A DNA stretch of 22,231 nt. Origin: a virus. The notes below the pieces were generated by a model, which was not told the origin of the DNA, did no database searches, and saw only the letters and a list, made by a program, of their open reading frames with translations. The translations under genes and the position numbers were made by a program. Where the stretch lies: positions 1 through 22,231 of the IMG/VR virus record IMGVR_UViG_3300034980_000061, one strand, 5' to 3'. Shown here one piece after another: positions 2,924 to 8,471 of this stretch (positions are counted from its first letter, which is position 1; each line of letters opens with the position of its first letter).

Positions 2924-3307
2924 ATGCCAAAATTCGGTAAAAGAAGTAAGGGCAATATGAAGGGAGTAGACATAAAGCTTCAAAATGTCTTTAATGAAGT
3001 AGTTAAGGAATTTGATTGCACCGTTACGGAAGGATTACGAAGCCAGGAACGCCAGAATGAATTAGTTGAACAAGGTAAAAGTAAGACCAAATTTGGTAAG
3101 CACGTTTTAGGCAAGGCTCTGGACGTATATCCGTTTCCTGTGGATTTTAAAGACAGGGATAGATTTCATTACTTTGGTGGTTATGTTAAAGGTGTTGCCA
3201 AAAGTCAAGGTGTCAAAATAAGATGGGGCGGAGATTGGGATGGAGATTTTGAAACTAAAGATAACGTGTTTGATGATTTGTGTCATTTTGAAATATTAGA
3301 TGAATAA
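2924..3307 (+). CDS. Endolysin, M15 family L-Ala-D-Glu/D-Ala peptidase type
   Basis: 127 residues, the usual size for a single-domain M15 peptidase endolysin such as that of phage T5. The family's zinc site is intact: H60 and D67 in KHVLGKALDVYP, and H121 in DDLCHFEI. D118, three residues before H121, matches the catalytic acid. The spacing (H-7-D and D-3-H) is that of VanX/VanY and T5-type enzymes. The upstream TEGLRSQERQNELVEQGKSK is the typical substrate-side segment. There is no signal peptide, so export across the inner membrane should need the holin-like proteins encoded just upstream. It should cut a peptide bond in the peptidoglycan stem; which bond is not fixed by sequence. It overlaps the next gene by 8 bases. 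Confidence 0.92.
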   Translation: MPKFGKRSKGNMKGVDIKLQNVFNEVVKEFDCTVTEGLRSQERQNELVEQGKSKTKFGKHVLGKALDVYPFPVDFKDRDRFHYFGGYVKGVAKSQGVKIRWGGDWDGDFETKDNVFDDLCHFEILDE

Positions 3308-4914: not shown

Positions 4915-5096
4915 AAATAGAACTGAAAGATAAAAAGAATCCAATCACTCAGATGTGGTGCTTTAAATATTCTGGATATGATTCGGAGATAATTAACAAA
5001 CTTAATTCTGGGGAAACAGTTGAGGTTGAAAAGATACCAAAACCAGCTCTGGAATTTGTAACAGAAATAAAACTAAAAACAAAGGGGAATGAATAA
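4911..5096 (+). CDS. Small protein of unknown function
   Basis: 61 residues from the ATG at 4911, which overlaps the preceding TGA (ATGA). A longer frame from 4890 would need a non-ATG start inside the previous gene and is rejected. The sequence (MKIELKDKKNPITQMWCFKY at the start, VEVEKIPKPALEFVTEIKLK near the end) is probably a small beta-rich domain. Its last base overlaps the tail tube start (TAATG). No family recognised. Position between terminator-like and tail tube genes suggests a tail assembly part. Confidence 0.6.
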   Translation: MKIELKDKKNPITQMWCFKYSGYDSEIINKLNSGETVEVEKIPKPALEFVTEIKLKTKGNE

Positions 5097-6112
5097 TGGC
5101 AATTTCAACAGCATCATATTCGTCATCAGCTTTTAAAATTGCGATAGCGGAACAGGATGCCTTCGGAACAATAACAGCGGCTGGTGGTAACGCATATCAT
5201 GCTTTAGATGTGGATTCGATTAGTTCACCATCATTGAATCTAAATCAAACAATGGATGTACGATCAGGCAGTCGAGTTTTACAAACTACTGATTTCTTTC
5301 ATACTAAAGTCGGTGCAATAGCAGAAATCAGCGTATCGGGAACAGCGACAACAGCGGCCCTTGATATGCTACTTGAAAACATGATGAGTGAAGCCGAAGG
5401 ATCAGCGAGTGGTGTTTATTCGTTTCTATCAGATGCTTCTGCTCAAAGCGTTGGATCGGGTGATTCATCTCAAGCTGGAACACTCTTATCAATAGCTATG
5501 ATTTCACCAATCACCGATATGGATTTGGGCTTTAAAGATTGTGTAGTAACAGCCTTATCGCTTTCGGGTGATGCTGGAACTGAAGGCGGTCGTATTAAAT
5601 TCTCAGCTACCTTCAAAACGGGATCGGCAGTAGATGCAACACAAGCCACAACGGTTGGTGCAGTAGATACTGCTTTCACAGCGGCAACTGAGAACTATAC
5701 AATGAATTCATGGACTGCTGGATATAGGCAATTAGTAGGTGTGCCTGATTTAGTGATGAGTTCATTTGCATTAAATCTTAGTAATGATGCCAACTTCCTG
5801 GGTCTTGTATCTACAGGATTTGAAACAATCTCAAGGGCTGGTGAATTCTCTGCTACTTTGGATGCCACGATTAAATACGATGATAAGTGTCAGGCATTCT
5901 TTGAGAACTTCCAGGATCAAGCAACTGGTGCATCAGAAGGTGCTACATTGTTGAATCATCAAGCGGCACTTGCGGATGACAATTTCGGAATAAGTATTCC
6001 AGCTTCAGTCATCACTAACGTGGCTTTTAATGAACAGGCGATGATGATGATGGATGTATCAATTAAAGCTACTGGCGGTGGCAGTACGGCTCTCGTAGAA
6101 GTAGCCTGTTAA
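5096..6112 (+). CDS. Major tail tube protein
   Basis: 338 residues, Ala/Ser/Thr/Gly-rich and acidic, with alternating short strands and few charged helices, as in siphovirus tail tube proteins. Diagnostic features are the N-terminal FKIAIAEQDAFGTITAAGGN, the central strand pairs around VVTALSLSGDAGTEGGRIKF and the second-half repeat SSFALNLSNDANFLGLV. The last part (EFSATLDATIKYDDKCQAFF) resembles the tail tube fold's second sheet. It lies just upstream of the chaperone pair and tape measure, the standard place for the tube gene. With no sheath gene found, the tail is probably non-contractile. No motif is absolute proof, but order and composition agree well. Confidence 0.8.
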   Translation: MAISTASYSSSAFKIAIAEQDAFGTITAAGGNAYHALDVDSISSPSLNLNQTMDVRSGSRVLQTTDFFHTKVGAIAEISVSGTATTAALDMLLENMMSEAEGSASGVYSFLSDASAQSVGSGDSSQAGTLLSIAMISPITDMDLGFKDCVVTALSLSGDAGTEGGRIKFSATFKTGSAVDATQATTVGAVDTAFTAATENYTMNSWTAGYRQLVGVPDLVMSSFALNLSNDANFLGLVSTGFETISRAGEFSATLDATIKYDDKCQAFFENFQDQATGASEGATLLNHQAALADDNFGISIPASVITNVAFNEQAMMMMDVSIKATGGGSTALVEVAC

Positions 6113-6129
6113 TTAATTAGGGAGGCGAT

Positions 6130-6414
6130 ATGAAGATAGAAGTAGAAGGTCAGGAATTCCTGATAAAAGAAATTAGTTATTCAGATAAACTTGGATTGCA
6201 TGGTGAATTTGCGGATGTCTATAGAAATGGTACTGATAACGTGAGCCAAAAAGACTTCAATGTCTTATTGGGACATACGGCAGAGATCGCATTTAACAAG
6301 CCTGATGATTCTTTGAAAGAACATGAATATGAATTTCAATTAAAAATTCTGATAGCTTGCATGATGGAATATTTGGGATTGTCGGCTTCAGCAAAAAAAG
6401 AAGATGGGGGTTAG
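6130..6414 (+). CDS. Tail assembly chaperone, short form (gpG-like)
   Basis: 94 residues read without frameshift, from the ATG at 6130 with a strong AGGGAGG site at 6119-6125, to TAG at 6412-6414. It is acidic and helical (EISYSDKLGLHGEFADVYRN, then HEYEFQLKILIACMMEYLGL) and ends in Ser-Ala-Ser-Ala-Lys-Lys-Glu-Asp-Gly-Gly. It lies between the tail tube and tape measure genes, exactly where lambda gpG and its analogues sit. Those proteins bind the tape measure during tail assembly and are absent from the virion. The A7 run five codons before the stop is a -1 slip site that produces the longer form. Confidence 0.8.
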   Translation: MKIEVEGQEFLIKEISYSDKLGLHGEFADVYRNGTDNVSQKDFNVLLGHTAEIAFNKPDDSLKEHEYEFQLKILIACMMEYLGLSASAKKEDGG

Positions 6415-6815
6415 CCTTTTGTGTGTGGTATTGGGTATTCCAACCGAAGCCACACGATCAATATTTGTTTCCCTACATTGGCGAAACTCCCGTATCAAGA
6501 AAGGTAAAGGAATTTAATCATGTTGATGACATCTTTGAAGAGGTTTTGGAAATATCGAATGCGAGTGATGGCAAACGAACACTCGGACAAGAATTATGGT
6601 ATCTGATCCCACTATTCGCAAATCCACAATACCTATTAGATGATGAATCCTTCAATCTAATAAATGAATATCACTACATCATTGACTACCATATCCCTTT
6701 GGGTAGAACCTTAGATGAAACCGATGCTCATAAATTGGAGTACTTTACAATCATTAAAAATGAAATGGGTGTCGCATTAAGACATCGACAGGAAAAAGAT
6801 GCTAAAAAAAGATAA
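6130..6815 (+). CDS. Tail assembly chaperone, -1 frameshift fusion (gpGT-like)
   Basis: The downstream frame up to the TAA at 6813-6815 has no usable start of its own: its only early start is a TTG at 6357 inside the short form, and the first in-frame Met is near the C-terminus. Slipping back one base at A AAA AAA (6393-6399) joins residues 1-90 to RRWGLAFCVWYWVFQPKPHD and the rest, giving about 228 residues. This matches the G/GT pair of lambda-like phages, where a few percent of ribosomes make the fusion. The T-like part is aromatic and acidic (VDDIFEEVLEISNASDGK). The fusion is inferred from sequence, not measured. Confidence 0.8.
6393..6399 (+). promoter_or_regulatory. -1 ribosomal frameshift site, A AAA AAA
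   Basis: In the zero frame the codons are GCA AAA AAA GAA, which fits the X XXY YYZ slippery pattern with A throughout. Both tRNAs can re-pair after a -1 slip. About 21 bases downstream GTGTGG (6423-6428) can pair with CCACAC (6450-6455), with TTGG/CCAA (6431-6434/6440-6443) inside. This is further away than usual for a stimulator, so the hairpin's role is doubtful. Confidence 0.8.
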
Positions 6816-6820
6816 AGATT

Positions 6821-6886
6821 TGGGGATCGATGATTGTCAATATACCGATGATCTTATGCACAGCCTCCCTTGTAAACCGATCCCCA
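6821..6886 (+). repeat. Inverted repeat upstream of tape measure gene
   Basis: TGGGGATCG (6821-6829) and CGATCCCCA (6878-6886) are a perfect 9-base inverted repeat with 48 bases between them. They fill most of the 81-base gap between the chaperone pair and the tape measure start at 6897. No U-tract follows, so it is not a standard terminator. It may set mRNA stability or tape measure expression, or be a protein-binding site. Confidence 0.65.
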
Positions 6887-6896
6887 GAGTTTAATT

Positions 6897-8471
6897 ATGG
6901 CCGATAAAAAACTAAATATAAAAGTCTCAACAACTGGTGCAAGTAAATCACAGAAAAACTTAAAAGGTTTATCGGGATCAATAAAAACTTTAGGAAAGGC
7001 GGCATTAGCTACTGGTGCGGCTTATTTCGCTACGAGGGGATTAATAAACGGATTCAGTTCAGCATTAAGATTGGCTGGTGAACAGGAACAAGCTGAAAAG
7101 AAACTTGAAGTAGCATTAGGTAAGACATCAACCGCCTTACTTAAGCACGCTTCTGCCTTACAGAAAATGACTACTTTCGGTGATGAAGCAATTATAGGGG
7201 TTCAATCAAGTCTGGCCGCATTCATTAAAGACGAAGAACAAATCAAAAAAGCAACAGAAGCCACATTAGATATGGCGGTTGCTATGGGGATGGATTTAAA
7301 AGCGGCTGGTGATTTAGTTGCAAAGACTCTGGGATCATCCACCAATGCCATGAGTCGTTATGGTATCCAGGTCGAAGGTGCAGTAGGTTCAACAGAAAGA
7401 CTTGAATCATTAACAAAGAATGTATCTACTCTTTTTGGCGGTCAGGCATCGGCACAAGCTGATACTTATGCTGGTTCTGTTGAACAGATGAAAAATTCTT
7501 TAGGTGATATGGCAGAACAGATAGGGGCAATTATGATACCCGTATTTGAAAAATTAGAACCTCATTTAAGTTTAGCAATAGATTTCTGGAGTAAATATTT
7601 CGGATCATTAAAAGATGGAGATACTACAAGTAGTGATTTCTCTATACAGGTTCAGGAATTAAATAAACAAATAAAAGAACAGGCTTCTTTAGTTGATTAT
7701 ATTGGTGGTGAATCTTATAGAACATTCGTGATGATTAGAAAAAGAGCCAATGCTGAAGGTAGAGAATTTGCAGAACAATTATCTATAGATAATGAATTAT
7801 ACAAAGAAGCTACAGATAAATTAGATGCTTTAAATAAAGAGAAGCAAAAGCAATTAGATATTGAAAAAGCCCTAAATACACAAGCAGTAGTTGGTCTTGA
7901 ATTAAGACGGGCTGAGATTGATATGGATATTGAATATGTAGAAGTTATTGATCCAGCGACAAAGGGTAATAGTCTATTTGCCGCATCTTTTCATGACATA
8001 GCTGGTGCATCATCAACTGCATTAAGCCAAACAAGTGATCTATTAGCGGCTACATCTGGTGCATCTAAAAGACAACAAGTTCAAGCGATGAGATTAGCAC
8101 AATTTGCGGCAATAGCGGATACTGCATCAGGTGTTATGAAGGCATTTAAGCAAGGTGGTACACTCGGATTTATAACTGGTGCTGGAATTGCCGCTACGGG
8201 TGCGGCTCAAGTTGCTACTATTCAACAAGCGATTTCAAATGCACAAGGGGCTGAAACTGGATTTGATGGTATAGTAAATAGACCAACTATGTTTATGACA
8301 GGGGAAGGCAACAAAGCAGAACGTGTATCTGTAACACCTCTACAAGGCCCCAATATCAACGGGCCGCAAGGTGGAATTACATTAAATATATCAGCACCAT
8401 TAGTAGATGAAACGGTGATTGATTCAATCATCCCAGCTATACAAAAAGCACAGCGGATGAACCTTGCATGA
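6897..8471 (+). CDS. Tape measure protein
   Basis: 524 residues, long and largely helical. It has an N-terminal coiled region (ASKSQKNLKGLSGSIKTLGK), a hydrophobic helix near residues 33-60 (KAALATGAAYFATRGLINGF) and a conserved tape-measure-like block (DMAVAMGMDLKAAGDLVAKT, then LGSSTNAMSRYGIQVEG). A second Ala/Gly-rich hydrophobic segment near residues 420-450 (LGFITGAGIAATGAAQVATI) follows. Its place after the chaperone pair is diagnostic. By the usual rule of about 0.15 nm per residue the tail would be near 80 nm. The ribosome-binding site is weak and the gap upstream holds a large inverted repeat. Its stop overlaps the next gene (ATGA). Confidence 0.92.
   Translation: MADKKLNIKVSTTGASKSQKNLKGLSGSIKTLGKAALATGAAYFATRGLINGFSSALRLAGEQEQAEKKLEVALGKTSTALLKHASALQKMTTFGDEAIIGVQSSLAAFIKDEEQIKKATEATLDMAVAMGMDLKAAGDLVAKTLGSSTNAMSRYGIQVEGAVGSTERLESLTKNVSTLFGGQASAQADTYAGSVEQMKNSLGDMAEQIGAIMIPVFEKLEPHLSLAIDFWSKYFGSLKDGDTTSSDFSIQVQELNKQIKEQASLVDYIGGESYRTFVMIRKRANAEGREFAEQLSIDNELYKEATDKLDALNKEKQKQLDIEKALNTQAVVGLELRRAEIDMDIEYVEVIDPATKGNSLFAASFHDIAGASSTALSQTSDLLAATSGASKRQQVQAMRLAQFAAIADTASGVMKAFKQGGTLGFITGAGIAATGAAQVATIQQAISNAQGAETGFDGIVNRPTMFMTGEGNKAERVSVTPLQGPNINGPQGGITLNISAPLVDETVIDSIIPAIQKAQRMNLA

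Follow-up and report, generated by a model that had tools for sequence, protein, structure and literature searches.

Does the short gene that precedes the tape measure gene in this marine phage simply end at its own stop codon, or is it also extended, by a shift of the ribosome, into the frame that overlaps its 3' end? The question arises at positions 6130-6815 of the window (here, the whole 22,231-base virus record, in which the main genes all lie on the + strand), where the sequence-only reading saw the G/GT plan of long-tailed phages, produced through a -1 frameshift. Frameshifting of the G/GT type is known in most long-tailed phages. That reading agrees with the phase of the putative slip site, the two frames, the gene position, the product size and the conservation of the arrangement across over 30 distinct sequences, and it is highly probable that 6130-6815 encodes a -1 frameshift G/GT tail assembly chaperone pair, with a downstream RNA stem that probably raises the slip rate.

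The overlapping frames and their neighbours

The features of the locus are as follows.

5096-6112, + strand: probable tail tube protein (Phage_tube_2, E 6.5e-5; 23.1 bits against a Pfam cut-off of 27)
6120-6125, + strand: ribosome-binding site of G, GGGAGG, read from the sequence
6130-6414, + strand: G, the zero-frame, N-terminal part of the putative tail chaperone, 94 aa, with 25 homologues
6393-6399, + strand: slippery heptamer A_AAA_AAA
6399-6815, + strand: T, the -1 frame extension predicted after the slip
6130-6399 plus 6399-6815, + strand: predicted GT fusion, 228 aa
6404-6416, + strand: 5' arm of the downstream stem, AUGGGGGUU followed by GCC
6412-6414, + strand: TAG, the zero-frame stop codon of G
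6422-6456, + strand: inner hairpin, UGUGUGGU...GCCACACG, enclosed by the long stem; support is weaker, and the register differs among relatives
6480-6493, + strand: 3' arm of the downstream stem, GGC and AACUCCCGU
6897-8471, + strand: tail tape measure protein (phrog_27166, E 3.6e-11)

The 94-residue gpG-like frame and its good ribosome-binding site are confirmed, the coordinates in the sequence-only reading are exact, and the PHROG match of the 6897-8471 product bears out the claim that the pair lies just before the tape measure gene. The resulting gene order is tube-like, G/T, tape measure, the tube side being the weaker because the Phage_tube_2 match falls below the cut-off. Elsewhere in this small phage genome, 14061-15917 holds an HNH nuclease gene followed by a gene for a 493-aa C-5 cytosine DNA methylase. 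The protein encoded at 3-905 has LamG-like (concanavalin A-like) domains and that of 2924-3307 resembles Peptidase_M15 below the cut-off; these two products probably serve in host binding and lysis.

The 3' codons of G in the zero frame are GCA AAA AAA GAA GAT GGG GGT TAG. Since the codons at the run of A's read GCA AAA AAA GAA, the heptamer is correctly phased (X_XXY_YYZ) for slipping into the -1 frame, in agreement with the sequence-only reading. No stop interrupts the -1 frame between 6333 and 6815 and, as that reading also held, the frame has no plausible start of its own: upstream, the only start-like codon is TTG at 6357, inside G, and the first ATG lies at 6765. Counting 90 G codons (to 6399) and 138 codons from 6399 reproduces the expected product of 228 residues with the junction AKK-RRWGL.

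We infer that the majority of ribosomes would end at TAG 6412-6414 and release G, and that a minority would slip back by one base on A_AAA_AAA, with both lysyl-tRNAs re-pairing on AAA, to yield the 228-aa GT; the long stem that begins 4 nt past the heptamer probably slows the ribosome and lifts the slip rate. Lambda G attaches to the tape measure, and the tube protein is brought in by the T part of GT (PMC5009743). By analogy, many copies of G would coat the tape measure here, and the T part of the few copies of GT would bring the tail tube subunits.

Conservation of the heptamer and of the two proteins

The heptamer by itself is weak evidence, because in the A-rich window an in-phase A_AAA_AAA is not rare (7 among 6762 codons, with 16 for A_AAA_AAN). 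In E. coli, A_AAA_AAA is a modest slip site (PMC5009743). A search with T retrieved, besides 50 viral loci, a single contig from a Marinimicrobia metagenome-assembled genome (MAG), and a search with G retrieved 26 viral loci; scoring was confined to the 46 loci that include the T start (45 viral contigs and the bacterial MAG contig). Several of these are near-identical, and together with the window they represent 34 distinct 121-nt contexts. A_AAA_AAA, or A_AAA_AAG in one clade, is present at the junction in 45 of the 46, down to about 33% identity in T; the sequence of the remaining locus, L062, begins downstream of the heptamer. Two of the 45, L002 and L042, are truncated by the start of their contigs and still show the heptamer. 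Such retention of A_AAA_AAA or A_AAA_AAG at exactly the same place, in 45 of 46 homologous loci, allows chance occurrence to be set aside. The frames are likewise constrained: in all scorable loci except L057 (12 nt) and L097 (6 nt), the distance from the heptamer to the end of the zero-frame stop is exactly 15 nt, as in the window, and in most loci a stop codon of the T frame lies 0-6 nt upstream of the heptamer.

L097, a 5.3-kb contig, is the sole relative in the bacterial genome collection and gives a weak hint of Marinimicrobia as host. Three contigs of 26-30 kb (L042/L093, L058/L075 and L045/L081) open with T and close with G, a layout suggestive of genomes of that size that are circular or circularly permuted. 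Two contigs of 41-44 kb with a related tape measure have an ORF before the tape measure gene (L013:4338-4963 and L014:4216-4841) that contains GAA AAA AAA AAG in phase, with a -1 frame of 84 codons devoid of ATG and no comparable stem; this ORF probably encodes another frameshifted chaperone.

T evolves as a protein under purifying selection. Against the nearest full relative, dN/dS is 0.031/0.364 (about 0.09) for T and 0.042/0.458 for G, and where the window differs from its relatives, the changed base is mostly the third of a -1-frame codon. AlphaFold confidently models G as a beta hairpin plus helices (pLDDT 91.5) and T with its first 16 residues as a helix (pLDDT 90.5).

Comparison of the window protein with Pfam and PHROG gave no match to a tail assembly chaperone (TAC) family. 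Among the relatives, sub-threshold matches appeared to Phage_TAC_7 (3 of 25 G members, best E 0.0083) and to phrog_9001 (4 of 26 T members, best E 0.0019). The modelled fold of G matches many predicted viral proteins in BFVD, several of which are named tail assembly chaperone (best named E-values 0.16-0.3), and has moderate matches in the PDB to 5ir0, PICI-like ORF19 (Z 7.0, rmsd 3.8, 84 residues aligned), and to 3klu, YqbN (Z 4.5, rmsd 4.3, 74 residues aligned). The fold suggests that G may belong with the tail assembly chaperones, a link at the level of structure and not, by sequence, to a named TAC family. In fold comparison, the top hit of T is a viral protein that carries no name (E 1.2e-8, identity 36%); T's PDB fold matches, all under Z 5 and to unrelated proteins, were rejected as relatives. 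A PDB sequence search with G and T found no close match, and the annotated phage collection held no relative of T (best E 5).

The RNA stem downstream of the heptamer

The sequence-only reading comprised the heptamer and the frames; the downstream stem is new. The window's stem is built from AUGGGGGUU (6404-6412) with AACUCCCGU (6485-6493) and from GCC (6414-6416) with GGC (6480-6482); it encloses about 65 nt, including the smaller hairpin, and contains the G stop codon. Across the family, a stem of 9-15 bp, beginning 1-6 nt past the heptamer according to lineage, closes off about 60-70 nt and has the stop codon of G buried in it. Conserved hairpins 17-140 nt in length and 4-10 nt after the motif are established stimulators in bacteria, and Sharma et al. 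reported conserved hairpins of this kind in three of five phage clusters (PMC4066793). Compared with the usual spacer of 5-9 nt between heptamer and structure (PMC7618472), the spacer here is only 1-6 nt, so the lower part of the stem would be partly open with the ribosome on the heptamer.

Since the region codes for T, folding was judged against shuffles that keep the T protein and its codon usage. The 99 nt after the heptamer give a mean z of -2.74 over 28 sequences; ten further offsets in T yield values from -0.45 to +0.33. In the L046-L068 clade, the 3' arm is reached only with 106 nt; the 99-nt window hid its signal and longer ones restored it. When 19 closer relatives are aligned, 83.5% of cells are paired in the stem and the covariation is 0.246, versus at most 61.1% and 0.117 for slid controls. 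When the longest ungapped helix between the arms was compared with 2000 codon shuffles, it beat all or nearly all of them in L025, L026, L027, L029, L031, L032, L037, L041, L057 and L097. The last two are divergent and keep the stem though the bases differ in both arms: L057 has a perfect 14-bp stem (CCAAGCCCTGAGCC with GGTTCGGGGCTTGG) and L097 a perfect 11-bp stem (GCGGGGTGGCG with CGCCACCTCGC), each matched by 0 of 2000 shuffles. A conserved RNA structure a few nucleotides after the heptamer is accordingly present in the family, with a modest signal in the window alone, where 11 of 300 codon shuffles fold as well and 292 of 2000 match the longest ungapped helix. In L034 and L040, the helices are short.

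A structured covariance model scored the held-out L097 at 34.6 bits, versus 21.0 bits for the sequence-only model, and the held-out L057 at 24.7 bits, versus no detection; the gain is clear only for these two most divergent loci and absent for most others. Two rounds of RNAalifold on alignments of 73-76 nt produced no consensus structure, because the 3' arm of the long stem lies outside such windows and the inner hairpin shifts its register. No covariation is claimed for the inner hairpin, as conserved V-W and P-H codons largely dictate the sequence of its outer arm. An Rfam search of the window returned no match. A Shine-Dalgarno-like stimulator upstream of the heptamer was also sought by eye; AGGA occurs in L002 and L023 and is absent from the window and most relatives, and this candidate was dropped as not conserved.

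Another hairpin, GGGGATCG...CGATCCCC, lies in the 81 nt that separate T from the tape measure gene (6816-6896), and this gene lacks a clear ribosome-binding site. L002, L004 and L008 share the hairpin, and in most other lineages examined the T and tape measure genes overlap or abut; it may couple the translation of the two. At the end of T, a second run of seven A's (6804-6810) is out of the heptamer phase and absent from L008, and this run together with the gap hairpin (6809-6895) has a weak score with the stem model (E 0.48). It is conceivable, and on balance unlikely, that one circuit sets three tail proteins, the stem-stimulated slip fixing the share of GT and the gap hairpin coupling the tape measure to ribosomes that finish T; were this so, tape measure output would follow the frameshift rate.

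Alternative explanations and known systems

Two frames joined at a homopolymer invite the suspicion, already voiced in the sequence-only reading, that a sequencing or assembly error in the A run has split a single gene, homopolymer runs being error-prone. The same two-frame structure recurs in dozens of contigs from many metagenomes, including the variants with six A's and a G, and this conservation refutes an error, which is the least probable of the explanations considered. Scarcely more credible is that T is a separate gene with its own start, translated by re-initiation after the G stop. The G stop and the T frame do overlap, and a GTG at 6423 lies 9 nt past the stop; however, no start is conserved, the codon at 6423 being GTG, GTT or TTG among the relatives. 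Furthermore, the T-frame stop just before the heptamer means that in most loci T cannot start upstream of it, and the T frame is conserved from the heptamer onward (RWGL), and the model has a helix over its first 16 residues.

Slippage by the RNA polymerase would take a different route to the same fusion: a base added on the A run would leave a minority of mRNAs in which G and T are read in one frame. The window and most relatives have seven A's, and AAAAAAA is slippage-prone and underrepresented in E. coli genes (PMC4066793). Nevertheless, one clade keeps the phase with six A's followed by G, the phase of the heptamer is strictly maintained throughout, and slippage in transcription would not need a conserved RNA stem at a ribosomal distance. 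This explanation is very improbable, if somewhat less so than the other two. Ribosomal -1 frameshifting is the reading preferred here.

The system is well supported but ordinary, a textbook arrangement in tailed phages, and the understanding of the frameshift mechanism is unchanged. What is new is a protein family unrecognised by Pfam and PHROGs, together with the conserved stem. The analysis puts a tail-chaperone pair that recurs in small-genome metagenomic phages on firm ground and offers a conserved, testable candidate for a stimulatory stem in a frameshift of the G/GT type. It should also aid annotation, as automatic gene callers would report T as a wrong or missing gene.

Among known proteins, Phage_TAC_7 and related TAC families, as well as YqbN (PDB 3klu), resemble G in position, size and the order of a small beta hairpin followed by helices, whereas the sequence scores are under the curated cut-offs and the fold match is moderate. 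The -1 signals of dnaX and of the IS3 family share with this locus the A_AAA_AAG or A_AAA_AAA heptamer and a stem a few nucleotides downstream, but belong to other genes with other functions; here, the distance between heptamer and stem varies by lineage from 1 to 6 nt and, unlike in dnaX, no upstream Shine-Dalgarno-like stimulator is conserved by eye. In layout, the locus parallels gpG/gpGT of lambda, whose frameshift, with its counterparts in long-tailed phages, is the subject of Xu, Hendrix and Duda (2004; as cited in PMC5009743). Sequence relation to the lambda proteins is not detectable, the heptamer is A_AAA_AAA rather than G_GGA_AAG, and the conserved long downstream stem was not found described for lambda in the sources covered, which lie outside the primary literature on lambda G/GT. 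Both systems nevertheless have a short zero-frame ORF with a -1 extension just before the tape measure gene, an X_XXY_YYZ heptamer near the end of G and a T without a start.
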